Source of the DNA: Discostella pseudostelligera
Lineage: Eukaryota; Bacillariophyta; Thalassiosirophyceae; Thalassiosirales; Thalassiosiraceae
Assembly (NCBI GenBank): GCA_036940085.1
Contig: JALLBK010000069.1
Span: 12,501-38,765 of the forward strand
Length of the DNA: 26,265 nt
Direction: 5' to 3'
A program made the translations under genes and the position numbers. The notes beneath the pieces were generated by a model. It was not told the origin of the DNA. It made no database searches and worked only from the letters and a program-made list of their open reading frames with translations. This document shows positions 4,960 through 24,703 of this stretch, piece by piece. Numbering within the stretch: the stretch's first letter is position 1; every line of letters starts with the position of its first letter.

Positions 4960-5198
4960 ATCTTTATGAGGCGTCTTTCGTGTGGTCACCTTCAACGCGA
5001 TGAAGAATTACGTCATGGACAAGGATGCATCAAACATCAGTTTGATGGTCGAGCGTGACTTTCACTTTGTTTCACGAGGTGCAAAACTGGAACCTGGCTC
5101 AGCTGCTGCACAAAAATTTAAAACGATAAGCGAATTTTCGCGAAGGTTGAAGAGGTGGTTGGTGGTTGCTTCATCAATTCTTGTCAATCCATCGTGCC

Positions 5199-7079
5199 AT
5201 GGGATCGGGGGTATCAACACACAGGAGGAAAGAAGGCGGGATAGTATCGTTGCAAGAGAAAGTGAAGTATTTGAAAGAATCTCCGTTCTTTCAGTACCTC
5301 ACTCCCGAAACAATCAACGATTTCGCAAAATGCTTCCCTGACACTCTGAGCACCAACCCGGGCAAACGGATTGCGCTTGACTCTCGAAAGATGTATATCG
5401 TTTGCAACGGTGAAGTTAATCTTAGCACATCATATCCCGACAAATTAGCTAAAATTGAAGCTAAGGGCTACTTGTGTCGGAAACGGCGTGGCGACACTGT
5501 CAGTGTTTGTAAAGCAAGGGCCGATGTACAGCGACGAATGACGGTCAAGAGTAATAAGATGAAGGAGCTAGCTGAAGATATAATGACGGTAGCTGGCGGT
5601 GATACGGACACTCTTCTTCTCTGTGGAGATTCAGGAATGTTGGAAAATTTCTGTACTTCGCATCCCGAGTTGTCAAAGAGCATCTATGAAATTTGTACTT
5701 CTCATATCGAGGATAGATTGCAATCCATACCCTTCCTTCAGAATGTATCCAAGTCAAAGCTTGCTGTGTTAGCTGCCATGTGTCGCTATGAAGCATTTGA
5801 CTCGGATAAAACGGTGTTTGAGGAAGATAGTTCGGCCGATAAACTTTATTTGATCCTCAGCGGTGTTGTGCAGGTGATTGCCAAATCACCTGTGGCTATA
5901 TCCCTCCAGAGTTGTACCAATATGTCGTCGCGGGCTCGTTCAGAACAAGCAGTGGCGTTGTTGAGATCGCTGGAATGCAGCACTGGTCGGAAGACTATAC
6001 TCGAAGGATTCGATGAACCGCATGCCATGATTGCCGAGCTCACGGGTGGAGACTACTTTGGTGAAACTGCTTTAGTGTTTAACATTGCTCGAACTTGTGG
6101 TGTCCGAACAGCCGAAAAGTGCCTGTTTCTAACTGTGCACAAGACAGATTTTGAGAACTTTCTAAAGATTTGCCCCATCGAAGAGTCACTGGAGAAAGTT
6201 ATTAAGCGACGAATGGTATCCAAATTTTCAACGTTGGGAATCCCGTTCTTGAATGGAATCCCCGATGAGCTTCTTTCATCTTTGGCTTCTTCTGTATCGA
6301 TCATCGAGGTACCAAAAGACCATGTTATATTTAATCAAGGAGACGTGGGCGATCGGTTCTACATAATTGTTCACGGCAGCGTTAAGGTGGAAACTACGGC
6401 AAATACTGATTCAAATTCGGACACCATCAAAATCTCCAATGATAATGATCATGGAGGGAGCACCCAAGTAATTTCCGAATCTGTTATTGTGGGCAATTCA
6501 CTTGGGTCACTTGGTCCTGGACAATATTTTGGTGAAATGTCTCTCGTCGACACTGAGTGTCATTTGAGAAAAGCAACCGTCACCGCGAATAAGAAATCTA
6601 TCTTATTGTCTATTGACAATGAAAGCTTCCAAACCTTTATTGGCTCCAATAGCGTTATAAACGCCGAGTTTCAGCTTCGCCTCCTGAAGAACTCGGCAAT
6701 GCTGAAGAACGTCCTTGAACACCCGCTCGGGATAGCGTCATTTAGAGATTTTCTGGACGAAGAGCATGCGAGCGAGAACATCGAATTCTGGGTTGCAGTC
6801 AAGAACTTCAAGGACGGAGCAAGCTCGGCGCAAAGGAAACAAAAGGGCAAGAACATCTATGAAAAGTTTTGCACCACATCGTCTAAAAAGCAGATTAATA
6901 TTGCGCACAAAATGCTTGCAGAGATCGATGCAGCATTGCAGAAGGATGAAGACATCTCGCCTGATATATTTGACGCGGCCTTTCTAGAAATTATGAGGGT
7001 ATTGGAATTGGACAAATTTCCAAGGTACAAAAAGTCGTCTTACTTCAAATCATTTTTGTCGAATCTGGGAATCCTGTGA
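5199..7079 (+). CDS. Triple cyclic-nucleotide-binding-like domain protein with C-terminal RGS domain
   Basis: Predicted signalling protein of 626 residues in one exon, linking cyclic-nucleotide sensing to G-alpha GTPase acceleration. The start is the ATG at 5199 in gccATGg context; the open frame extends upstream only to a TTG. The N-terminus MGSGVS fits N-myristoylation, so membrane anchoring is likely. Domains: a degenerate CNB-like region at about 25-110; CNB at about 172-324 with the phosphate-binding cassette FGETALVFNIARTCGV and an inserted Ser-rich loop; CNB at about 345-481 with FGEMSLVD and LRKATV; RGS at about 495-626 with LEHPLGIASFRDFLDEEH, ENIEFWVAV and the closing FPRYKKSSYFKSFL. 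The cassette Arg is present in the second and third domains, so both may bind nucleotide; the first lacks a recognisable cassette. No kinase or channel domain accompanies the CNBs. Divergent from the P4H gene. Confidence 0.88.
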   Translation: MGSGVSTHRRKEGGIVSLQEKVKYLKESPFFQYLTPETINDFAKCFPDTLSTNPGKRIALDSRKMYIVCNGEVNLSTSYPDKLAKIEAKGYLCRKRRGDTVSVCKARADVQRRMTVKSNKMKELAEDIMTVAGGDTDTLLLCGDSGMLENFCTSHPELSKSIYEICTSHIEDRLQSIPFLQNVSKSKLAVLAAMCRYEAFDSDKTVFEEDSSADKLYLILSGVVQVIAKSPVAISLQSCTNMSSRARSEQAVALLRSLECSTGRKTILEGFDEPHAMIAELTGGDYFGETALVFNIARTCGVRTAEKCLFLTVHKTDFENFLKICPIEESLEKVIKRRMVSKFSTLGIPFLNGIPDELLSSLASSVSIIEVPKDHVIFNQGDVGDRFYIIVHGSVKVETTANTDSNSDTIKISNDNDHGGSTQVISESVIVGNSLGSLGPGQYFGEMSLVDTECHLRKATVTANKKSILLSIDNESFQTFIGSNSVINAEFQLRLLKNSAMLKNVLEHPLGIASFRDFLDEEHASENIEFWVAVKNFKDGASSAQRKQKGKNIYEKFCTTSSKKQINIAHKMLAEIDAALQKDEDISPDIFDAAFLEIMRVLELDKFPRYKKSSYFKSFLSNLGIL

Positions 7080-7235: not shown

Positions 7236-9441
7236 TTACTCATCAGGCCTCTTCCACTCCTCTGTATAACGAAATGATATCTTTCCGTAGTCTAATCCCA
7301 TTTCATTTGAGCGTAAGAATGGGATGAACTCCTTCTGCATCGGTCTGCCTACAAAACGACAAAGATTGTGTTCCACTCTCTGTTCCTTTACATGAATACC
7401 AAACACATCAAAGAATGTCTGCAAATCGCGAACTTTCCCTATTCCGTACGTCAACTCGTCCGTGCGGATCCAATCAGCATTTTGGCCAGGCGGAGTTGGT
7501 GCATCCATGTGAATTATTGCGTTGAGTCTTTTCATACCATATTCCCCTGATCCTCGATAAATGTTGCTATTCTCCCAGAATAATGGGACATTCTTCCGTC
7601 CATAATAATGAAAGCACACTGCCCTTTCAGGAGTATAATAGTCGTATCCATATCTGTTGTCAAGAGGCAGCGTCGAAAATGGTAAGCAGAATTACGAAGA
7701 GCTCAACAAAGAAGAGCAGAATTGCACAAACTCACGAAAAGCCTCGTAGACCAATCGAGATTTCTTCCCCCTGAAAGATCCAAGGTAAATGTTGATCATA
7801 GGGTATATTCACCACGAAATGTCCCCGTCCGAAGGAGAAGCCAGCTGCCCAAAACGGATGCAATGTTGGCATATCATGTATATACGGCGTCCCCTCGGGC
7901 TGTTGTCCATGCCGCAAGTGCTTATTTACTCCGTCACCCTCAAAGTCACTCTCACACATTATTGGTCGTGAATTGGAGATGCGCTTTCCCGAAGTCACAT
8001 CGATATGATCTTCCACACCAGAGAGGTAGGTACTCAATACTGCCATTTCATTTTTCGCCGAATGCCACTGCTCAATGATTTCGGTATCCCACCCGTTTGT
8101 GTATTCAACGTGCGCATCAGACTGGACGGCAAAGTATTCACCTCGATACAAACGATTGCCCAAATGCCTAGCGAATACTGGACCCACGGACAATTCGGCA
8201 TCCACTGTCAAATAATCTATTTGTGATTTGTATTTGCACGCTGCCTGCTCAGGATTCATGGTGCATGTTCCATTGGGAGGTACCGAACAGGGTGTATCAA
8301 TCCCAATATGAATTTGATCGACGACTGCCACACGTATCCGTTCGGGATGGGACGCTCGCTGAAATGCCGATTCGACCGTTCGGGAACATTGCCAGTCTCG
8401 ATAGGATGCCACCGCAATGAATATCGTTTCAAGTAGTTCTGCTTCTTCATTATTTGTGGTATTGTTGTTGTCATTCTGCAATGGAATTCGAGAACCAATG
8501 GACTTGGCCTCCACAGGTGTCATGAGACGTGAACCGTAGTTGCCGAGATAGCGACGCACGCCATCACCACCGCCCTCTCGTGTAGCATTATTGAGGATGC
8601 TGCTGTCGACAGTATTTCCATTCTGTCGTCGTTCTCGTTCATCGGCAATGATGCGGTAGGGAGCAGGATCCCAAAATTTAGGTACACGCATCAGCCCCTC
8701 GTCTTCTTGATTCTCGCGCTTGTAATTACCACCCACATTGCCTCTTAGTTGTTGATTACGTGATAATGCCCTTGCCAACTCTGCTGGCTTCATTCTTCGT
8801 TTCTTTAACAATGCGTGTGGATCTCCCTTGTTGAAGTATCGTAATGCTTCCGTGGCAGGATGCACAATTGTTTCCCAATTTGGATTCTTGCCATCGGTAT
8901 CTGCACCAATGGAAATTGGAAATTGATTGATACTATCATAGGATGCCAATAATATTTCTTGCTCGACTTCTGTTGTAAATGGAGAGTTGGCATTGGATAA
9001 TTCACTTAGAATTCGTTCAATGCTATCCGTTGGCCGTTGTCCTGCACCATCATGAGCATGATCATTGGGAGAATTCCCAACAATTATACAATGGTAACAG
9101 AATGTGACGATGATGAACAGTGTGGCCACGAAAAGAGAATGCACGCCCATCCATCGAAATCGAAGCGATGACTTTATTCTTCCTCGGATGATTCTATCCC
9201 GTGTCCCTCCGCTCTTGGTACGGACACTGATGCCCTTTCTAGTGGAGATAGATGGTGATAAGCCCGAGGCGGACGAGGGGTCAGTGTCGTCATCATCGGC
9301 AAGAGTAGTAGTGATGCTACCGCCGCCATTATTCAGTCCATTGTAGTCACCGCTGATATGACCACCAGCAACAAACCGTTTCCGTCTAGGAGGACGAGCT
9401 GATAGTAGTAGTGGATCGTCGTCGGCGCCCACCATGACCAT
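7236..9441 (-). CDS. GT60-type GlcNAc transferase, type II membrane protein
   Basis: Predicted UDP-GlcNAc transferase of the Pfam GlcNAc/CAZy GT60 family, which includes Skp1-hydroxyproline GlcNAc-transferase (Gnt1) and the trypanosome Golgi polypeptide alpha-GlcNAc transferase. Two exons: 9441-7736 and 7653-7236 (82-bp intron), 707 residues. The splice joins LRGFS to YGYDYYTPERAVCFHYYGR, a continuous family motif. Start: the open frame reaches upstream only to a TTG; the first ATG is 9441 (MVMVGADDD). A single membrane helix near 96-121 (LFVATLFIIVTFCYHCII), after a basic cytosolic tail, predicts a Golgi type II enzyme rather than the cytosolic Skp1 enzyme. Catalytic domain at about 335-690: IFIAVASYRDWQC, AVQSDAHVEYTNGWD (acidic, metal-binding-like), HPFWAAGFSFGRGHF and FQGEEISIGLRG. 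The 96-335 stem is low complexity. Three GGCGGGAA motifs lie 100-165 bp upstream. Confidence 0.88.
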
Positions 9442-9541
9442 TGTCAATAATGCATTCGAGGTCGAGTTGAGTTGTGGAAATGGAAAAAAATGGAAGGCGG
9501 ACACGACAATCGACAAAATAGGTAGAAAGGCTGTTCAAAAT

Positions 9542-11308: not shown

Positions 11309-11453
11309 GCATAGTGTTTGATTGTCGAACGAACGAGCGAACTGGAGATGCAGCCATAATACATAACATCGGAGCCTCAANGCATAGTGTTTGATTGTCG
11401 AACGAACGAGCGAACTGGAGATGCAGCCATAATACATAACATCGGAGCCTCAA
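11309..11453 (+). repeat. Exact 72-bp tandem repeat around a single N (contig-join artefact)
   Basis: Bases 11309-11380 and 11382-11453 are identical over 72 positions and are separated only by the N at 11381. This is what results when two contigs with overlapping ends are joined by a placeholder N without merging. It ends three bases before the ATG of the LPMO-chitinase gene, so the real 5' leader is probably one copy. Confidence 0.85.
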
Positions 11454-11456
11454 AAG

Positions 11457-13076
11457 ATGATCTTCATCAAATCCACCAATCGCATCGCTGTGATAATCTT
11501 GACCGCCAATCTCACACTTCGTGGAGGTGACGCACATGGATATCTGAAATCTCCACGATCCAGAAACTATCATGCATCGGTCAACCCAGTCTGGTATGGC
11601 GGGTGCGTATTTTTCTATCTTATTCATCAGGCAGGCGTATTTGGCTCTGATACTCACATTACGTATTGCATTTCTTATTCAACAGAACGGCCACTACACC
11701 AGCACCTGAGAGTTGGTAAGAAGAGGAGTCTATGAATGTCGTTTGTTTTGGCTCAGCTGATGCATTACAATCTCAATCTTCCATTATCCTAGTCCACACT
11801 GCCTCAACATCGGAGGTTCAGTAGCCAGATGCGGTAAAATTGGTGAGTTTTGAAGCTGCTACCAGTGCACTGGTGGTAATTGTTGAGAGTTTTGACTCTG
11901 ATTGATTGTGTGCATCTTTCTATGGTAGACAACCGTAACTATGACTACCCACCCAACGCAGTAGGCGGTGTCCTTCCTCCAATTATACAAGCATGCTACG
12001 AACAAGGAGCGACAATTGATATTGAGAGTGTCCTTACTGCCCATCACAAGGGACATTTCGAGGTGAAGGCATGCCCAATAACTCCAGGCCAAGTTGCGAC
12101 ACAGGCATGTTTTGACAGCAATCCTCTTGGATTCGTTGAGGATAAGTTTTATGGTGCAGCTGTTGATCCTCTTTATCCCGAGAGAGCATACATCCCGAGG
12201 ACAGACTTTCCTGGAGGAATCAAGACTGGGCCTGGCGGCACTTATCTTTTTCATCATCGGTATAAGCTTCCGGATGGACTTCGTGGAGATCTCATTCTGC
12301 TCCAATGGTACTATATTACGGCGAACAGCTGGTGAGTTAGATTTTTCTACCGTTTCTGTCACTATCAAATGAAAATATTCACATGTCTCCTCTTGCTCAA
12401 TCAACAAATTGTCCAGTAAGCCTAAAGGATACGACACATATGCTTGGCCAAATGGATTTTATCCTGGAGACACCATTCCTATTTGTCAAGTCATTCCTCC
12501 CGACGGCCGAGGTGTTCCTGAACAGGTACGATATGCAGTTCGTTTTGGAACGTTTGGTTGCACGCATTTCGTTGCCTCTCATGATTCATATAACAAACCC
12601 TAATTTAGTTTTGGAACTGTGCCGAGGTCGAGATTAAAGTTGCGAACGGCTGTGGCGCGTCTTCGCCCCCAGCAGTTCTGCCGTCACCCAAGCCAACAAT
12701 ATCTCTCCCCACGGTAACTTCGACCACCACTTCAACCGTAGCAATCACATCAGGAGCAACAACTACAACAACTTCAAGCACAAGCACTACTACGAAATCT
12801 TCAAACTGTGCCACATATACTGGCATCTGCGGCCGCGACAAGATTTGTGCTAACGGAATGTGCTGTAGCCAGTGGGGGTATTGTGGGACAGGTGAAGCCT
12901 ACTGCGGGATGTGCTGCCAAAGTGGCAATTGTTTTGGTAACCCAACTTCACAGCGTCCAACTCCAAGCCCAACGAATCTGCTTCCATCGACGACTAGCAC
13001 ATCAAGTACCAGTGGCTCGACAACAGTCTTTAACCCCACCTCCACCACTTCTACTTTGGCCAGTACAACAGGATCC

Positions 13077-13107
<31 letters not shown>

Positions 13108-15286
13108 CGACAAAGCCTCCAAACTGTGCATCATACACCGGCTTATGCGGCCGGGACAAGCATTGCGCTGACGGAATGTGTTGCAGTCAGTGGGGGTACT
13201 GCGGAACAGGTGATGCTTATTGTGGGACATGCTGCCAAAGCGGCAATTGTATTGGTACTCCAACTACACCTTCAACAACTAGCACATCAAGTACCAGTAG
13301 TGCGAGTACTACCACAGCAACATCATTGACAACAACAACATCCTCATTTATTGGAGAGCTTGTTCTAAATAGTTCTGCTAGATGTGGAACTTCTGAGCTC
13401 GATGCTAGAGAGCATTGTAAGAATGTCTGTTCTACGAATTCTGACTGTGAAGGTGGCGAGTTCTGTTGGGTTGTGCACAGGAGTTACTGTGGAAGCTTGC
13501 CTCAGCGCGTGTACCAAAATCCAATTCAGTCATCGGTGACAACCCGTTGCGGGGTCTCTGAGGAAATAGCGAGGACATTCTGTGGTGAACCGTGCAGCTG
13601 GCAATGCAGCAAGCCTGGAGATTCATGCATCGCGGTGAGTAGTATCTGTGAGAAGGCCGAGTTATTGCCTTGCACAGCGAAGACTAACTGATCTGCGATT
13701 GAACTTGTCATGGCAGGTTCATTCAAACTATTGCGGCTCGTCTTACACTGAAGTTGGAGGCGTGACGACACCGGCAACAACAACTTCCAGCACTGCCGTC
13801 ACGACTAGTAATGCTACTCCCATTGCTGGCATTACCACAAGTACCCCATCAACCATGCCCACACCGAGGCCGAGTCTGAATCCCGCAGCGATATCCAGTA
13901 AACCCACGCCTCTTGGAGGCACCATAGCGCCTAGCCCAACTCAGCTGCTTTCAGCTAAGCCAACCACTCTTCTCTCTCCCCGTACATCATCGCCAATCGA
14001 CAGTCCTCCTGCAAACTCAGTAGCTGCAGCTGTGGAGGCTGTGCTGGAATTGAAAAAGGATGATATCGACAACAAGATATTATTATCCCAGGAACCCTCG
14101 ATGCAATGGGTTCCCTCTACAATATATCGCTACAAAGACCTCCTGGATGGACTGCGTGTGATGTACAATGATGGTGTAGCCAACAAGTATTTTTTCTTGG
14201 GTGAAGAAACTCCGAATGGTCACTTGTATGGCCTTGTCAACATTGCCGCATTCTTAGCGCAATCAATGAAGGAGACGATTCAATACAATGCGTGTGACGA
14301 AAACTCGTGGGACCGAATCAATGGCAAATATCCACTATCAAACTCCTGTGGACAGCTTGGCCAATCATACCAGGATTACAAGTGTTCCGAAAGCGATTCT
14401 TACATGGAATGTGCAGTGAACAAGGACATGGAAATCATAGCTACTACCAATGCAAAATGGTATGGCGCTCCTGCTCCACTGTTTTGTGGGCCGAAAACAA
14501 AGTATCCCTTCACGGGCACATGGGACTATATAAAGGAGTGCAACAAGCCATGGGCAATGCCACCTGAATTTTGCACCGTTTATCCAGGCCAGAAAGCGGG
14601 TGGTTTCGACAACTCATCGCCGTTCCCAAATTCGGCAGGCCGGACTGATGTGGAGGGTTGCTGCTTCTGGGGACGAGGTGTGATCCAGACTACAGTGAGT
14701 TGTTGTTTCGTTGCACATCTATCATGGATGTTTGGCTACTCAGCTAATTATTGACTCGTATCGCGCTTCTTATCCCGCACCATAGGGCGTTTGCAACTTT
14801 GGGAAGCTGAATTACTACCTTGGCAAACGTGCACACGACGAGGGCCGTGACAGCCGATTCCCTAACATCAATTTTTGCGAGACTCCAGATGCGATCTGTG
14901 CCAGTGAGGAACATAAGGAACTAAAGTGGATTGCGGGAATGTTCTATTGGGTCGAATCTGTTCAGAGCTACAATGTTGGTGGGTGGAACTACATCACCGA
15001 GCTGAAGAAGTTTGTTGATAACGGTATGTCCAGTACCAGCTTCATCGATTCTGTTTCAGGCATTGTTAACCGTAAGTGTGCTAATGTTGTGCTGCGGTTG
15101 TTGTCGTTCGATCGAGGTTCGATTTCTACTTGGAATGCACTTTTTTCGTATTGAAGTACTAACTGGCTTTGCGAATTGTACCAACCAGGCGGATGTCATG
15201 ATCCTCCCTGTTTGACCGGAGATGTGGATGGAAAATGGGAGAGATCTTCCAATTTTGTCAAAGTATTGACTGTGTTTGACATTTAG
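11457..15286 (+). CDS. Secreted LPMO (AA15/AA10-like) - CBM18 x2 - Cys-rich x2 - GH19 chitinase fusion
   Basis: Predicted extracellular chitin-degrading enzyme, 1041 residues from nine exons: 11457-11602, 11686-11715, 11793-11842, 11929-12331, 12417-12525, 12609-13634, 13717-14694, 14786-15071 and 15189-15286 (GT-AG introns of 77-117 bp). Residues 1-26 are a signal peptide; cleavage after GGDA exposes H27 of [11 protein letters not shown], the first His-brace ligand. The second is H115 in [10 protein letters not shown]; the module closes with [12 protein letters not shown] at about 245-256, where F247 is a candidate axial residue. Then come a Thr/Ser linker, CBM18 at 313-354 and about 419-460 (each ten Cys, [11 protein letters not shown]), Cys-rich repeats from 505 and 560, and a Ser/Thr/Pro linker. 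The GH19-type domain runs from about 700 to 1041: FLAQSMKET with candidate acid E774, [20 protein letters not shown] and [12 protein letters not shown]. The second GH19 catalytic acid was not assigned. No membrane anchor. Exon borders are by eye; the module order is firm. Confidence 0.86.
13077..13108 (+). repeat. (ACA)n microsatellite coding a poly-Thr linker
   Basis: About ten ACA units encode an uninterrupted Thr run in the linker between the two CBM18 domains. Being a triplet repeat in frame, length changes would alter only linker length. Confidence 0.85.
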
Positions 15287-18281: not shown

Positions 18282-18663
18282 AATGGTCAACCACAAGCTG
18301 GCGGGAAGCGGGAAGATGAAAGCGTGGAAAAAGGAAAAGGGCAACAAATCGGTTTGGCCCAAAAATCAATTCGTCTTCTTTGCATAGGAATCAATATTAA
18401 ATTTGGAGCGCTCCAAATTGGTGAAGAATTTTGATCTTCAACGCACTCAGGTAGGAATAAGTGAATTGTCTAAAATATCCGCATGAAATACACAAACGAA
18501 GATGTATGTAGATAGGAGTAAATGTTTTTAATTTTGTTCCAATACGATTGCACTTACTCTTTCACTTAGGGCTAAAGAGACCTCCCACACCAGTGCCCAA
18601 GATGCAATAATTATTTATGCAACGCAACATAAAAATGCAAGGCATGAGTAACTCGAACCAACA
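18282..18663. promoter_or_regulatory. Divergent promoter region, disordered protein / EDR2-C gene
   Basis: These 382 bp separate two divergent start codons (18281 - and 18664 +), so both promoters should lie here. A GGCGGGAA core sits at 18300-18307 on the plus strand, next to the minus-strand start. AT-rich stretches fill 18390-18560. No coding content is visible. Confidence 0.5.
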
Positions 18664-21600
18664 ATGATGTCCAACTCCAACCATACTATGGACTATGATG
18701 CATCGTCCACCACCTCTGAGGACAGTCAAGAGCCCTACTATCACATTACCACGGGGAAGGTCGTCAAGGCGCGTGAGGCGTGGGCAATTCTTGCTGCGGA
18801 AAATCATCCTCGGTATGCCGGTCGTCGACTCAGTCGCAATGATGTATCGCCATCGGCATCGGGACCAGTGAAACAAGGCAGCAATGGGGGCCTAGTGCAT
18901 GCTGATAACAGAAAAGAAGATGCCAACAACAGAATCATGAATGAGTCTATTTTTCGCTCGTCGGATGAAGAGATGATTAGCAGCGATGACGCCATCGACA
19001 ATTTGTTGCATGATCTGTCGTCTCCTTCCTTCGAATCAAACAATAATCATCATCACATTCGTCAAGATTCCTCCTTCTCTGCCGACCCCACACAATCTTC
19101 CATCGATAGAGCATTGATCAATCCGGAATCACCCACGGCATCCATCTCACCCTACAAAGACATGAAACAAATATACAAACCAGCATCTACAAATTCACCC
19201 TTTGAAGATGGTCACCACAGCAGCCACAATCCCTACATTAACAATCATCACAATGCAGAAGTACCACCCCCCTACGATACCGACGATGATGAAGAATCCG
19301 ATCCCATCATCTTACGTGCCACCGCCATGGCACTTGCCGCCCAAAATGGTCTCAAATTAACACCGGAACAAATGGCATTGATTGCTCAACCGGATGTACA
19401 GCAACAGAAATTAATTGAGGAGGCAAAGCGTGTCCAGAAGGCTAAAGAGATGCAATTGCTACAACAACAGCAGGGTTCAGGAGCGGTGAATTTGCAATCG
19501 TTGAGTGCCGACATTAAGAAATTTATCCGTATTGAGAAGGAGAAACCACCAATGCAATGGGGGGCGGATTTGGGCAAGTTTATTGAGAGTCAGATTCAGC
19601 ATGCGCATCATGCGGGAGGTGCTGGTGCTAGTCATGCTTCTTCGTCTAGTGCTACTACTGCAACCAATGCCAATGCGGATTTGGGTCAGGAGGGAAAGAA
19701 TGGAGATGAATCAAGTAGTAGTACCCCGAGACCATCTCCACCCAAGAAGAAGATGGAGGGGTTTGGTTGTGATCCAACTGATTCCGCTACCCCGTCTGAA
19801 CCGTTCTCATCGTCATTGCTTGGTGGCAAGGGACTGAATTGGCCAATATTGAATGAAAGTATCACTAATATTTTACCCGGCGGCGGCGGAGGGGGGGGCG
19901 GCATAGCAAATCGATCTGAGCCGGGGGGTACCACAGACATGCTGACATCCTCATCAATAACTTCTCCTACCGACACTATTGATTTCAATGATCCAGTAAT
20001 CATCTCGACAACTTCATGGAAACGTCGAGCTGTGGGGAAGCGAAATGCCATGATGTTGGCATCATCTTCGTCCTCGTCATCATCATGGGAACGGATACGT
20101 GTCGAATTGCGTGGAAACAAGTTAATTTATTACAAAGCATCCGCAGCAACAACAACATTCGATGGGAGAGAGAAGAAGGACGATGACAATGGCACCAGTG
20201 TCGCAGACTCGACGACGAAGCGGTTAAGTGTATTGTTTCAAGCGGCCGAGCAGAAGATCCAAACGGCCAAGGAGGAATTTAACCGTCTTGCATCGGGCAC
20301 TGGACTAGAACGGAAGACATCATCGTCTTCTGATCCTCTTGGCGTAATGGATTTGGTCAAGGAAAATGCATCCGTTTCAGCATCGATGGGACATTCCGGT
20401 GCGCCGACCCCATTCTGTCTTTCGATTAAGGTCAAGTCCGAAACGAAATGGAAATTTTCATTCGATAGACATGGTGAAATGATGGAGTGGCTTTGTGCTT
20501 TGACCGATGTTATTGTTCAGTCTAGTGTCGATGCTTCAGGTAGCGGTCGGGAGATGGAGATGTACTGCATTCAACGTCGCGGCGGGCAGAACAGAAATCA
20601 TGGTGATAAGGCCGTGGCAGCTGCTTCATCCACATCACTGCGCTCTTTCTTTACAAATGCAGCATTTTTGGGAGACAAGGAAACAAAGTGGGTCATTTGG
20701 GCGACATTGGCGTTACTCAATTTTGCCGTCATATTGGCTCGGACGACTGGACTATCATTTTTGAAATTGATTATACTTTTTAATTTGGGAATGTGGCAGC
20801 TCACGAGGTATTCCCTGCAAGCCGTCGGGAGAGTGAAAATGGGTAACAATCTGACGTCGACACCTACCGACGCTGGAGCTGGACGCAAGTGGTCCTATAA
20901 GCCGATTGCTGGCAGCACCACTATTAAGGTTACAAAAGAGGACGATCCCAATATCACCGAGAAGGGGCATCAGCTGCCAACTTGGGTGCCAATATCATCG
21001 AGTGGAATGGAGGTTAGATCTCATGGCTATTTGACAACGAAAAGAAAGATACCAAGCCCAGGCGAGCTTTATGAGTGCGTTGCGGTTGATTGCTTCGTTT
21101 CCAATGCCCGTGTGTCAGAGATAGCTACGCGAATGAAATTCGACCAACAATTTGAAGCAACCGCTACTGGTAAAACTTGGAAGAGTCCCGACATATTTAT
21201 CGTCTCAATCGCAATACCAACGGAGGCACCAAAATTAGGATACAGCGCAGATGACGGTCCGGGCGCAACCATAGTAGGATACTTCAAAATGAAGGAGGAA
21301 ACGCGAACAATACTCCGCCGGATCACGGCTACTTCGTATGATCCCTTGACAGATTCATCCGATTCGGAAATAGACATCCAGAAACAGCTAACGAATGGAG
21401 TGCGACTTTGGGAGCAATTCTGCCAAGTAGCACCCACTGATTCAACGTTCCAGGCTCGGTTCAAGCTCATCCCGTCAGCCAACCTTGAAGAAATGGGTTG
21501 CCCTTCGTACATTGCCAAATATAACGCAAAGCCAGTTCTTATAAAACGTAACCAAGTGACAGGCTTCTTCACCGACTACCCGACACTGAATGCAATGGAA

Positions 21601-21828
21601 TTCGACATTAGCCTTCACCCCTTCCCGTATCTGTTTAAGCAGGGCATGGCTTACATTAAAGAGTACTTTGACAAATCTGTTTGGACGTTTGGTTTCGTCA
21701 TTGAAGGAAGGAATAACGATGAGTTGCCTGAGGTAGTGGTTGGGGCGATGAAAGTATGCCACCCCAGTCCCAAATTTACTGTGAATGCAGACGAACTCTT
21801 TTCTGGAACTTGTTCAAAAGTACAATAA
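18664..21828 (+). CDS. PH domain - membrane segments - EDR2-C (DUF1336) lipid-binding protein
   Basis: Single exon, 1054 residues, starting at the first of two adjacent ATGs. The C-terminal region (about 768-1050) matches the EDR2-C/DUF1336 family: IFIVSIAIPTEAPKLGY, RFKLIPSANLEEMGCPSY, EFDISLHPFPYLFKQGMAY and WTFGFVIEGRNNDELPE. A PH domain at about 453-617 starts SWKRRAVGKRN, continues with IRVELRGNKLIYYKA and ends KWKFSFDRHGEMMEWLCAL; it is interrupted by a poly-Ser run and an insertion of roughly 100 residues. Between them, about 676-716 is hydrophobic enough for one or two membrane helices. In plant EDR2 the order is PH-START-EDR2-C and PI4P binding is known; here no START domain is recognisable. 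The first 440 residues are disordered, with His/Asn, Gln and Gly runs. Probable role: phosphoinositide or lipid binding at a membrane. Its stop is 45 bp from the convergent DAG lipase stop. Confidence 0.85.
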   Translation: MMSNSNHTMDYDASSTTSEDSQEPYYHITTGKVVKAREAWAILAAENHPRYAGRRLSRNDVSPSASGPVKQGSNGGLVHADNRKEDANNRIMNESIFRSSDEEMISSDDAIDNLLHDLSSPSFESNNNHHHIRQDSSFSADPTQSSIDRALINPESPTASISPYKDMKQIYKPASTNSPFEDGHHSSHNPYINNHHNAEVPPPYDTDDDEESDPIILRATAMALAAQNGLKLTPEQMALIAQPDVQQQKLIEEAKRVQKAKEMQLLQQQQGSGAVNLQSLSADIKKFIRIEKEKPPMQWGADLGKFIESQIQHAHHAGGAGASHASSSSATTATNANADLGQEGKNGDESSSSTPRPSPPKKKMEGFGCDPTDSATPSEPFSSSLLGGKGLNWPILNESITNILPGGGGGGGGIANRSEPGGTTDMLTSSSITSPTDTIDFNDPVIISTTSWKRRAVGKRNAMMLASSSSSSSSWERIRVELRGNKLIYYKASAATTTFDGREKKDDDNGTSVADSTTKRLSVLFQAAEQKIQTAKEEFNRLASGTGLERKTSSSSDPLGVMDLVKENASVSASMGHSGAPTPFCLSIKVKSETKWKFSFDRHGEMMEWLCALTDVIVQSSVDASGSGREMEMYCIQRRGGQNRNHGDKAVAAASSTSLRSFFTNAAFLGDKETKWVIWATLALLNFAVILARTTGLSFLKLIILFNLGMWQLTRYSLQAVGRVKMGNNLTSTPTDAGAGRKWSYKPIAGSTTIKVTKEDDPNITEKGHQLPTWVPISSSGMEVRSHGYLTTKRKIPSPGELYECVAVDCFVSNARVSEIATRMKFDQQFEATATGKTWKSPDIFIVSIAIPTEAPKLGYSADDGPGATIVGYFKMKEETRTILRRITATSYDPLTDSSDSEIDIQKQLTNGVRLWEQFCQVAPTDSTFQARFKLIPSANLEEMGCPSYIAKYNAKPVLIKRNQVTGFFTDYPTLNAMEFDISLHPFPYLFKQGMAYIKEYFDKSVWTFGFVIEGRNNDELPEVVVGAMKVCHPSPKFTVNADELFSGTCSKVQ

Positions 21829-21873: not shown

Positions 21874-24703
21874 TTATCGAACCATGTTGGCTCCTTCCAG
21901 ATTGCATCCATCCCCATCCCGATACATAGTAGTTGCTCGACCAGCAGCACCGTATGATTCTGCTGCAATATCAAGCGCATGTGCGATATTGTAAGGAAAA
22001 TGATCTGCCATCATCGTGGGGGCTGCGATATGAAGCAATCAACTGTGAGAACACATTGAACAATATGAAAGGGTAATTAAGTTAGGGAATGACTCACAGA
22101 TGTAGATCTCAGTAAGATCTTTGGAATCTATCCAACGAACCTTGTATTTTTTGGTGACAGGGCTGAACCCGCAGCAGACGATACATTTCATGCATGATAA
22201 AATGCAACTGCATGGTACATTATCCAATCTAGCCGATGTGCGGACCATATGCATGATTTTTCCAGGAGCACTCATCTTGCTTTGTTGACCACCTCGTTCT
22301 TGTTGTCTCTCAGATTGCCTCAACTTAAATCTCTCAAACTCGTTGTAGAATTTAGTTGCAGGGATATCGGCTTTGCTGTACAGAAGTGTCTCTGGAAGAC
22401 TGAGCAAGGCCTTTTCATTCCATGGCCTGAAATTTGCATCAAACACTTTATGTTTCGGGCACTTAATCCTTGCGATCATTTCAATGAGATCATTGCGGAA
22501 GTTCACCAAAGATTCGTAGGATAATCTTGGGACAATGTCGTTATGCAAGACGTAGGAACAAACATAATCTTTGCTTTCTTTCGCCGTCCTTTCTGAGAAC
22601 ACGCAGCCAGGCGGACTGAAACAAAGGCAGTACAAATTTGGATACTGCTGCCTTAACATTCTGCCAAGCATTGCCGCAACTCCAGCCCCAAGAGAGTGAC
22701 CAATGATGCGCAGCCCGAAGTCTGAATGAGCTTCCAAAGCTTCATCTAGAATTCTATGTCGTTTCAAGTCGTCGTAAATCCAACATGCTCCAGCAAGAAA
22801 TCCACTGTGGCAAAATTCTCCTCGTCCATCAAATCCATATTTCTCCCCTATCTCGTCCAACGGTTTAGGAGTGAGAGTCACATCAGATATCATATCCTCA
22901 AAACTCAAGGTGCCTCTAATCGTCAGAACAATTGTCTTCCACTCGTCATCCTTCACGATGAAGTAGGGGTTGACGCCGACATCATTACAAAAATTGGCAT
23001 ACAGTAGATTCGATTCATCAATCTGAAGTGTTTTCAAAACGGTGGCTTTCTTCCATCCGCAGATGTTGTCTCCAATAAGATTTTCATCAGACCGACAACA
23101 CCTTGGATGACTCGACGCCGTCAATTCACAGCATCCAGTGCATTTTTTGGTCCACAAATACATCATCCAAGAGTATGACGCCAGTGCTACTGCACAATAA
23201 CGACTTCCTTCACCTAATGCGAAACAATCGAACGCGTTTCGTGGCGAAAGTACACTGGCCATTGTAGGCTCGAATGACACGTGGCTGTGTTCATGGATTA
23301 GTCTGTAAGAAATACTTTGCATTGCATCCTTGTTTGTCAGTATTTTACGGAGGTCAGCATCTGTCGGCCGAGACAAAGATGAAATGTACGATCCCATCTC
23401 ATCTTTATCAAAGAAAATCATGGCGTTAGTGTAGATAGTAACCAATTGATGGTAAATTATTGAATGATTGACACTTTGATCTCACCTCCATTATCTTTCG
23501 CTTTCATCTTGCTTTGGCTGATGTTCATCGCAACTTCCTGCCCTCCTGATTCCACATCACCTGCCATAGTCATGTCCAGCGTTTCTTTCAATGAAGCAGC
23601 ACTGCCACTATGCCTCGTATGACCTCGATGAGAAGCATCAGAACTGATGAATTGCTTCCATAACCTATCGGCCAATTTCCTGTCCTTTGCAAACAACCCA
23701 CCCTGCTGTAACAATTGATGCTTACAATCGATCTGCTTCTGCTTCTGAATATTCACTAGACATATCAGTGCTGCCGCTATATCCGACGTCACAATATCTA
23801 AACTCCCTTCATCGTCCAGAAAGTCCGCAAGTGCAATGGCAACATCGGCATAGCTTCCTGCGGTTAATTTCTGTCCACCAAACATGTAACAAGTCATTAA
23901 TGCCGAACATTCACACAATCGCTTGCATGTCGTCTGCCACGATCGTTGGACATCTTCTATTGATCTATCTCTCCGCGGTCGTATACGACGATAAACTTTG
24001 CGAATCTTCTGTTTGGTTACCGTAACAAGTGTAATGAACGGGAACAGAACATCACAAGCCATTGTGAAAATGAGAATAATGGCAGTGGTTCGTAGGTCAT
24101 CGGTTGGACATGCCGAAAGAAACTCCTCCCCCTCACGAGAAGAATTATGGTAGGCGCATTTGCAAAATCGATTGGTCACTGTTAATGAAACAATGAGAAA
24201 AATAAATCCAAGCGTGCGCACAAATAACATGGGCACCATGTAACATTTGCATATTGGCACCAAGTGCCGTCGCTTTTCTGTTTCGGTCGGAGTGCCTCTA
24301 CCAGAGATTTTGAAGATTGCCACCTCAATTAATGCACCAACAACACTGTAGAATAAAGTGAGGAAACATCCAATGACAATGGCGCTATACCATAACCAAT
24401 ATCTGTCTTCGTCATTCAAGCAGCCCGTCTCAATAAAGGTCTCGGGTTTGTGTTCAAACTGTATGATCTGGTGGATTATGTAGCTAACCAGGCAAATTTG
24501 GAATACACGCAGGGAGAATGTTATCATGGATATGAGACGCAAGTCATCGCCTGCAAAAATTGATCGCTCCCATACCACCTTTTCGGAACGGGTAGAGATA
24601 ATAGAGCAGAAGCGGCATAATGAGAATTGAAAATAGTGATACCCTGCAGTCTCCACTCTGAATACATTCCCTCACAGTCACAGGCACTTACAAGAGCAGG
24701 CAT
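21874..24703 (-). CDS. sn-1-specific diacylglycerol lipase (DAGL-like), four-transmembrane
   Basis: Class 3 lipase releasing an sn-1 fatty acid from diacylglycerol to give 2-monoacylglycerol. Four exons: 24703-24692 (12 bp, MPAL), 24578-23486, 23402-22098 and 22022-21874 (introns 113, 83, 75 bp), 852 residues. The micro-exon restores MPALVVWERSIFAGDDL, close to the MPxxVVxxRRW...DDL start of animal DAGLs. Four membrane helices lie within about 18-190, followed by the family motif GSLDIVTSDIAAALICL. The catalytic domain has IRGTLSFEDMISDV, the nucleophile elbow GHSLGAG (S605), FSPPG and LHNDIVPRLS (D657). The catalytic His candidate is H811 in MMADHFPYNIAHAL, encoded only by the last exon; reading through that intron would lose it. 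Cys clusters occur after GCCEL and near the C-terminus. Expected at the plasma membrane or endomembranes in lipid signalling. Confidence 0.88.

Follow-up and report, generated by a model that had tools for sequence, protein, structure and literature searches.

The diatom Discostella pseudostelligera appears to carry, in one gene, both an oxidative and a hydrolytic activity against chitin. In a stretch of 26,265 nucleotides (nt) from contig JALLBK010000069.1 (positions 12,501 to 38,765; hereafter the window), we reconstructed a nine-exon gene whose predicted product joins a lytic polysaccharide monooxygenase (LPMO) of the AA15 type to a C-terminal chitinase module with a divergent GH19-like fold, through chitin-binding CBM18 domains and six-cysteine repeats. 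On balance, the product of this gene is probably a secreted, bicatalytic enzyme of chitin degradation, and its most likely substrate would be the alga's own beta-chitin.

Structure of the fused gene

Splice reconstruction gave a frame that stays open over 1,041 residues, with all eight introns (77-117 nt) bounded by GT-AG, in agreement with the original prediction, made from the DNA letters, of one spliced gene running from 11457 to 15286. From the N to the C terminus, the protein consists of a signal-like segment, the AA15 LPMO, two CBM18 domains, two six-cysteine repeats and the chitinase module. Exon 6 (12609-13634) begins at F247 and contains the C terminus of the LPMO, both CBM18s, the first cysteine repeat and most of the second, which is completed across intron 6. 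The original prediction had described both this exon and the divided repeat, and had argued that the fusion does not depend on a single doubtful splice; the argument holds, as intron 6 splits the second repeat and is kept in two paralogs.

These paralogs lie on contigs C107 and C155 of the same 23-Mb, 963-contig assembly, in which the window is part of contig C69. Both have the same module order, and intron 6 falls at the same codon and in the same phase in all three genes; C107 also shares intron 3 in both position and phase. By eye, the C107 paralog has a CBM18-type domain and the C155 paralog has none. The exon boundary at intron 5 (EQ/FWNCAE junction) was also recognized by eye in an LPMO-CBM18-GH18 locus on contig C337. 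Ratios of nonsynonymous to synonymous substitution (Ka/Ks) were 0.057-0.15 in seven of nine module comparisons, Ks being saturated in the other two; judged from these values, purifying selection on the modules is strong.

Database searches at E ≤ 0.001 matched 462 proteins with the chitinase region and 96 with the LPMO region. They were confined to proteins whose length is 0.55-1.75 times that of the query, which under-samples free-standing LPMOs and modules, and the listing for the chitinase region comprises the best 120 of its 462 matches. Among the 207 matches listed, 19 hold the LPMO and the chitinase module together (blastp, 1e-4). A count with hidden Markov models (HMMs) over 239 proteins, namely the 207 listed matches, three genes of this genome and 29 bacterial proteins, found both modules in 22, none of them bacterial. 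One Porphyridium protein (P0119), for which PF03067 appears in a precomputed list, was missed by the HMM and was counted as fused in the tree and residue counts below. Another database protein, P0015, whose longest contig measures 2,727 nt, has an uninterrupted frame of 834 residues that takes in the LPMO, both cysteine repeats and the chitinase module. The fusion does not depend on this gene model alone: two diverged paralogs share the order and intron 6 with it, and both modules stand together in 19 of the 207 listed matches. The original prediction had proposed looking for the same order in other proteins, and the listed matches and the three genes found here go some way toward that; they also rule out a one-off fusion. 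At the sequence level, the fusion is real.

Just 5' of the ATG, two identical copies of a 72-bp direct repeat (11309-11380 and 11382-11453) surround a single N at 11381, as if overlapping ends of contigs had been joined during assembly. An LPMO-GH18 locus (L076, contig C817) has a comparable N accompanied by repeated coding sequence.

The AA15 LPMO module

The LPMO region matched the solved AA15 structure 5msz with an E value of 3e-6 when the window sequence was used and of 5e-22 when a profile of 46 homologs was used, and LPMO_10 scored 27.3 bits on the window (cut-off 23) in a profile search of this genome. The region is assigned an LPMO beta-sandwich with AA15 as its nearest solved relative. 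The His-brace (H27 and H115) and the axial F247 were found at the residues named by the original prediction. In an alignment of 95 LPMO modules (92 from database proteins and three from this genome), H115 and F247 are present in every row, and H27 in all 89 rows that cover its position, the other six being gapped there.

An axial Phe goes with chitin-active AA15s (PMC5823890, PMC8393829); TdAA15B and AaAA15A have it, as does the window protein, whereas TdAA15A (PDB 5msz) has an axial Tyr. In the window protein, unlike these three, the LPMO is one of several modules. Judged by its residues, the module is an AA15 LPMO with a predicted copper brace; it would bind copper and cleave oxidatively, and the protein that carries it would be secreted.

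CBM18 domains and six-cysteine repeats

In a Pfam scan of the whole protein, the two CBM18s alone passed the cut-off: PF00187 scored 45.3 bits (cut-off 27.8) in two stretches, as expected from the two domains originally proposed. The six-cysteine motif, of about 36 residues, was found by motif scan in 12 of the 207 matches listed and in all three paralogs, and a search with the repeat returned 14 proteins. It recurs beside AA15, CBM18, GH18 and GH19-like modules, and may be an undescribed chitin-binding module. We propose no fold for it because a structure model of P0015 has a predicted local distance difference test score (pLDDT) below 50 over most linkers and cysteine repeats. The domains X473 and X474, from AA15s and GH18/GH19 proteins of Saprolegniales, are likewise short and Cys-rich and attached to AA15s or chitinases, and X473 has six cysteines (PMC8393829); their likeness to the diatom repeat is one of description.

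A divergent GH19-like chitinase module

The original prediction had assigned the C-terminal module to GH19; the fold and the catalytic residues uphold this, but the GH19 profile PF00182 fails to recognize what is a divergent relative. PF00182 gave no match to the window protein at E ≤ 1, and none at E ≤ 0.5 to 46 scanned homologs (alignment A1), of which 35 have the module (two of them cut) and eleven are LPMO proteins without it; in the homolog scan at E ≤ 1, it was not among the 25 families listed of 28. One of seven bacterial relatives scanned gave 15.8 bits, below the cut-off of 25.5. An ordinary PF00182 GH19 is thereby ruled out.

By profile-profile comparison (hhalign), the module aligned with seven GH19 sequences at Prob 96% and E 2.1e-9, whereas the controls (10 column shuffles, one reversal and an LPMO profile) gave E values of 0.015 or worse, and VIA-align recovered the GH19 fold over about 190-200 residues. 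Foldseek found no GH19 among its best 50 matches to a two-domain model and matched GH19 weakly with a single-module model (best E 0.28); the fold claim therefore rests on hhalign and on VIA-align, which re-examined Foldseek's candidates. The module shares its fold and catalytic residue set with solved GH19 chitinases (Streptomyces ChiC, 2dbt/1wvu; maize class IV, 4mck; barley, 2baa), yet has 16-24% identity to solved GH19 domains in structural alignments and is longer (352 residues versus 201-246).

Five residues, E774, E783, Q912, T914 and N918, match the two catalytic Glu and Q118, S120 and N124 of a GH19 residue table (PMC8547705), E783 being placed by spacing and conservation rather than by superposition. 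All five are kept in the 19 LPMO-fused modules aligned (the window plus 18 database proteins, leaving aside P0123 and P0175, whose modules are cut), are identical in C107 and C155, and are also kept in 29 of 29 bacterial modules. In contrast, E774 is absent from 23 of 121 eukaryotic modules (e.g. P0107, P0111, P0112 and P0108), none of which has T or S at 914 (the S120 equivalent) and one of which has N at 918 (the N124 equivalent), which suggests a non-hydrolytic side branch. On this combined evidence, the C-terminal module is GH19-like, a divergent branch of GH19 and not a filed member of the family.

Distribution and evolution of the chitinase module

Homologs of the module were found in 29 bacterial loci (best-segment identity 38-51%) from Myxococcota and other former Deltaproteobacteria, one Bdellovibrionales metagenome-assembled genome, and Gammaproteobacteria including mussel symbionts. 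The named eukaryotic matches, among the best 120 of 462, include Thalassiosira, Cyclotella, Skeletonema, Hondaea, Durusdinium, Chromera and Porphyridium. When IMG/VR was scanned with alignment A2, none of the 64 pattern matches was confirmed as a relative, so for that collection and pattern a viral origin was set aside. At least one member (P0043) is named a GH19 protein in UniRef; thus, the family is not wholly unannotated.

On a FastTree phylogeny of the module (129 rows, 21 labeled LPMO-fused, the 23 rows lacking E774 having been removed before counting), 10 changes of the LPMO label are required, six or more of them forced by starred branches. Cut database proteins may be mislabeled as unfused in this count, and FastTree warned of long branches meeting. 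These changes suggest repeated joining or separation of the LPMO and the module.

Chitin-related genes of the host genome

The GH19-like module occurs on seven contigs of this genome and AA15 on six, and each of the six AA15 loci is continued, without a change of strand, by a chitinase module: GH19-like on C69, C107 and C155, and GH18 on C336, C817 and C337. By eye, the C terminus of the LPMO and the start of GH18 share an open frame in C336 and C817 (in C817 an assembly N lies close to the joint), and in C337 the two are linked through CBM18 exons. PF03067 recovered five of the six loci and the protein query all six, and the PF03067 search of the genome gave no further LPMO locus; the count comes from searches that scored only the best candidates. 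GH18 was found on 13 contigs, PF00182 GH19s on C369, C16 and C934, and matches to the chitin-synthase family (PF03142) on four, two of them above 500 bits.

At one further locus (L039, C16:17500-22000), GH18 is followed on the same strand by a PF00182 GH19 and a Cys-rich tail, making it a candidate GH18-GH19 fusion.

Proposed mechanism and substrate

In the mechanism we propose, removal of the signal peptide would leave H27 as the N-terminal copper ligand of the AA15 LPMO, which would nick crystalline chitin oxidatively, while the two CBM18s, and perhaps also the two six-cysteine repeats, spaced by Thr/Ser/Pro linkers, would keep the protein on the fibre. We infer that the GH19-like module would hydrolyze the chains loosened by the LPMO, with E774 as acid and E783 as base, presumably in intramolecular synergy. 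The job of the enzyme would be to trim, release or recycle the alga's own beta-chitin, if the alga makes chitin. This role is favored because of the chitin-synthase-family matches, the GH18s on 13 contigs and the joining of all six AA15 loci to a chitinase.

Several observations weigh against this interpretation. The support for the gene is at the sequence level, PF00182 does not match the chitinase module, Foldseek by itself gives only the weak GH19 signal described above, and the structure models are of relatives (P0015, with 71% and 80% identity to the window in the two catalytic modules, and the bacterial L041) rather than of the window protein. The second column of the GH19 table (PMC8547705), which we take to be endolysins, is also compatible with T914 and with the +9 spacing of the two Glu. 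PF03142 also matches in four of 14 control bacteria, so its matches are support, and not specific proof, for chitin synthesis by the alga. Finally, such fusions occur in Hondaea, Durusdinium and Porphyridium, which to our knowledge are not known as makers of beta-chitin fibres, and this weakens a purely own-fibre role.

The same bicatalytic enzyme might instead be aimed at foreign chitin, either in defense against chitin-walled parasites (e.g. chytrids) or in scavenging of detritus, and we regard this as an unlikely but credible alternative. The CBM18s are akin to domains found in class I chitinases and plant lectins, fused relatives are found in Hondaea and Porphyridium, and the module has homologs in marine bacteria, presumably of chitin-degrading genera; however, the strong chitin-synthase-family matches, with the caveat of the controls, and the six chitinase-tied AA15 loci fit an endogenous substrate better.

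Two other readings, both improbable in our judgment and about equally so, concern the C-terminal module. It could be a non-hydrolytic chitin-binding lectin that leaves the LPMO as sole catalyst, as the side branch without E774 would allow, but the five catalytic positions are intact in the window as in every fused and bacterial module aligned, and purifying selection is strong. Alternatively, it could be a lysozyme-type GH19 that cuts bacterial peptidoglycan. GH19 includes endolysins, and the presumed endolysin column of the residue table shows the same +9 spacing between the two Glu and a Thr in place of S120. That the gene model has wrongly joined two adjacent genes, for which the level of support noted above and the long low-complexity linkers might speak, is very improbable and was rejected, since intron 6 interrupts the second cysteine repeat at one shared codon, and in one phase, in the three paralogs, P0015 runs uninterrupted across the junction, and both modules recur together among the listed matches.

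Comparison with known enzymes

The bicatalytic chitin-degrading enzyme proposed here is not new as an idea, because Sabbadin et al. listed AA15-GH19 fusions from sequence in 2018 in Oomycota and Haptophyta, as well as AA15-GH18 fusions in Chlorophyta, diatoms and tunicates (PMC5823890). Those fusions likewise join a eukaryotic AA15 to a chitinase; the window differs in coming from a diatom with a GH19-like partner and in its added CBM18s and six-cysteine repeats, a comparison that covers the listed architectures. AA15s with disordered C-terminal regions have GH9, GH18 or other partners in 18% (PMC8615602). The bacterial Jd1381 (JdLPMO10A), an AA10-CBM5-GH18 protein, is the one characterized LPMO-chitinase enzyme named in a 2023 review, which reports intramolecular synergy, the full-length enzyme outperforming its separated parts (PMC10154629). 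The window protein likewise holds an LPMO, a chitin-binding module and a chitinase-fold module in one chain and in the same order, whereas Jd1381 is bacterial and has AA10, CBM5 and GH18 instead of a GH19 fold. The statement in the original prediction that no eukaryotic LPMO-CBM18-GH19 enzyme had been characterized agrees with that review; eukaryotic AA15-GH19 fusions as such had been listed from sequence, as noted above. In the open-access literature, we found no characterized AA15-GH19 enzyme, no account of the divergent module family, and no description of the diatom version with CBM18s and cysteine repeats or of the divergent GH19 branch.

Among diatoms, TwChi2 of Thalassiosira weissflogii is a GH19 with measured chitin hydrolysis, but is single-domain and belongs to PF00182 (PMC12028343). 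The T. weissflogii inventory, with domains assigned by Pfam and CDD, lists 38 chitinases and no GH19 among its eight Chitin_bind_1 proteins (PMC12028343). Another account gives 24 diatom chitinases, six Glyco_hydro_19 proteins being separate from ten with Chitin_bind_1, CBM_14 or LPMO_10, and its T. pseudonana GH19s were taken by PF00182 (PMC7874618). P0012, from a T. weissflogii transcriptome set (taxid 67004), has the module but is not matched by PF00182 at E ≤ 0.5, so this enzyme class may be overlooked in such inventories.

Other features of the window

Coordinates within the gene are collected in Table 1. Upstream of it, an open frame at 5151-7079 combines several cyclic-nucleotide-binding domains and, at its C terminus, an RGS domain, which strikes us as an unusual signaling combination, and the neighboring gene at 7236-9534 on the minus strand has a PF11397 domain of N-acetylglucosamine-type glycosyltransferases (frame 7732-9534). 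Downstream are a large open frame at 18652-21828, which has EDR2_C and matches a PH domain below threshold, and a class 3 lipase domain (PF01764) at 22039-23481 on the minus strand. Scanning the window for Rfam families and for tRNAs gave no match.

Table 1. Features of the LPMO-chitinase gene, in window coordinates.
Feature	Position	Strand	Description	Basis or remark
Whole gene	11457..15286	+	9 exons, ATG to TAG, 1,041 residues; exons 11457-11602, 11686-11715, 11793-11842, 11929-12331, 12417-12525, 12609-13634, 13717-14694, 14786-15071, 15189-15286	Splice reconstruction and translation; order kept in two paralogs
Signal-like segment	11457..11534	+	Residues 1-26, hydrophobic	Cleavage before H27 judged by eye from sequence
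AA15-type LPMO catalytic module	11535..12656	+	Residues 27-262, exons 1-6	Brace H27 and H115, axial F247
CBM18 (Chitin_bind_1), copy 1	12828..12938	+	Residues 320-356	PF00187; wheat germ agglutinin matches
(ACA)n tandem repeat	13077..13113	+	Codes for poly-Thr stretch in linker between the two CBM18s	
CBM18, copy 2	13146..13256	+	Residues 426-462	PF00187; wheat germ agglutinin matches
Six-cysteine repeat 1	13383..13490	+	Residues 505-540	Motif scan; with AA15 and chitinase modules in relatives
Six-cysteine repeat 2	13548..13734	+	Residues 560-594, split by intron 6	Unsplit in P0015
Intron 6	13635..13716	+	Phase 0	Identical codon in C69, C107 and C155
GH19-like chitinase module	14020..15283	+	Residues 690-1041, exons 7-9	
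E774 codon	14272..14274	+	Equivalent of GH19 catalytic proton donor	
E783 codon	14299..14301	+	Candidate equivalent of GH19 catalytic base	+9 spacing (residue table, PMC8547705)

Implications

The beta-chitin of diatoms ranks as a major marine polymer, and the cutting of its own fibres by the cell is poorly known. Tentatively, and with somewhat less than even confidence, we suggest that the C-terminal module represents a large unnamed family of GH19-fold chitinases that is missed by the curated profiles tried, is spread over algae, other protists, Myxococcota and marine Gammaproteobacteria, includes a dead side branch, and has been joined to eukaryotic LPMOs several times; with every LPMO of this diatom tied to a chitinase, both cuts would always be delivered together. 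Members of the family are candidates for knock-out in laboratory-grown Thalassiosira and for use as chitin-degrading enzymes in one chain; the side branch, apparently dead, provides natural controls for the catalytic residues.
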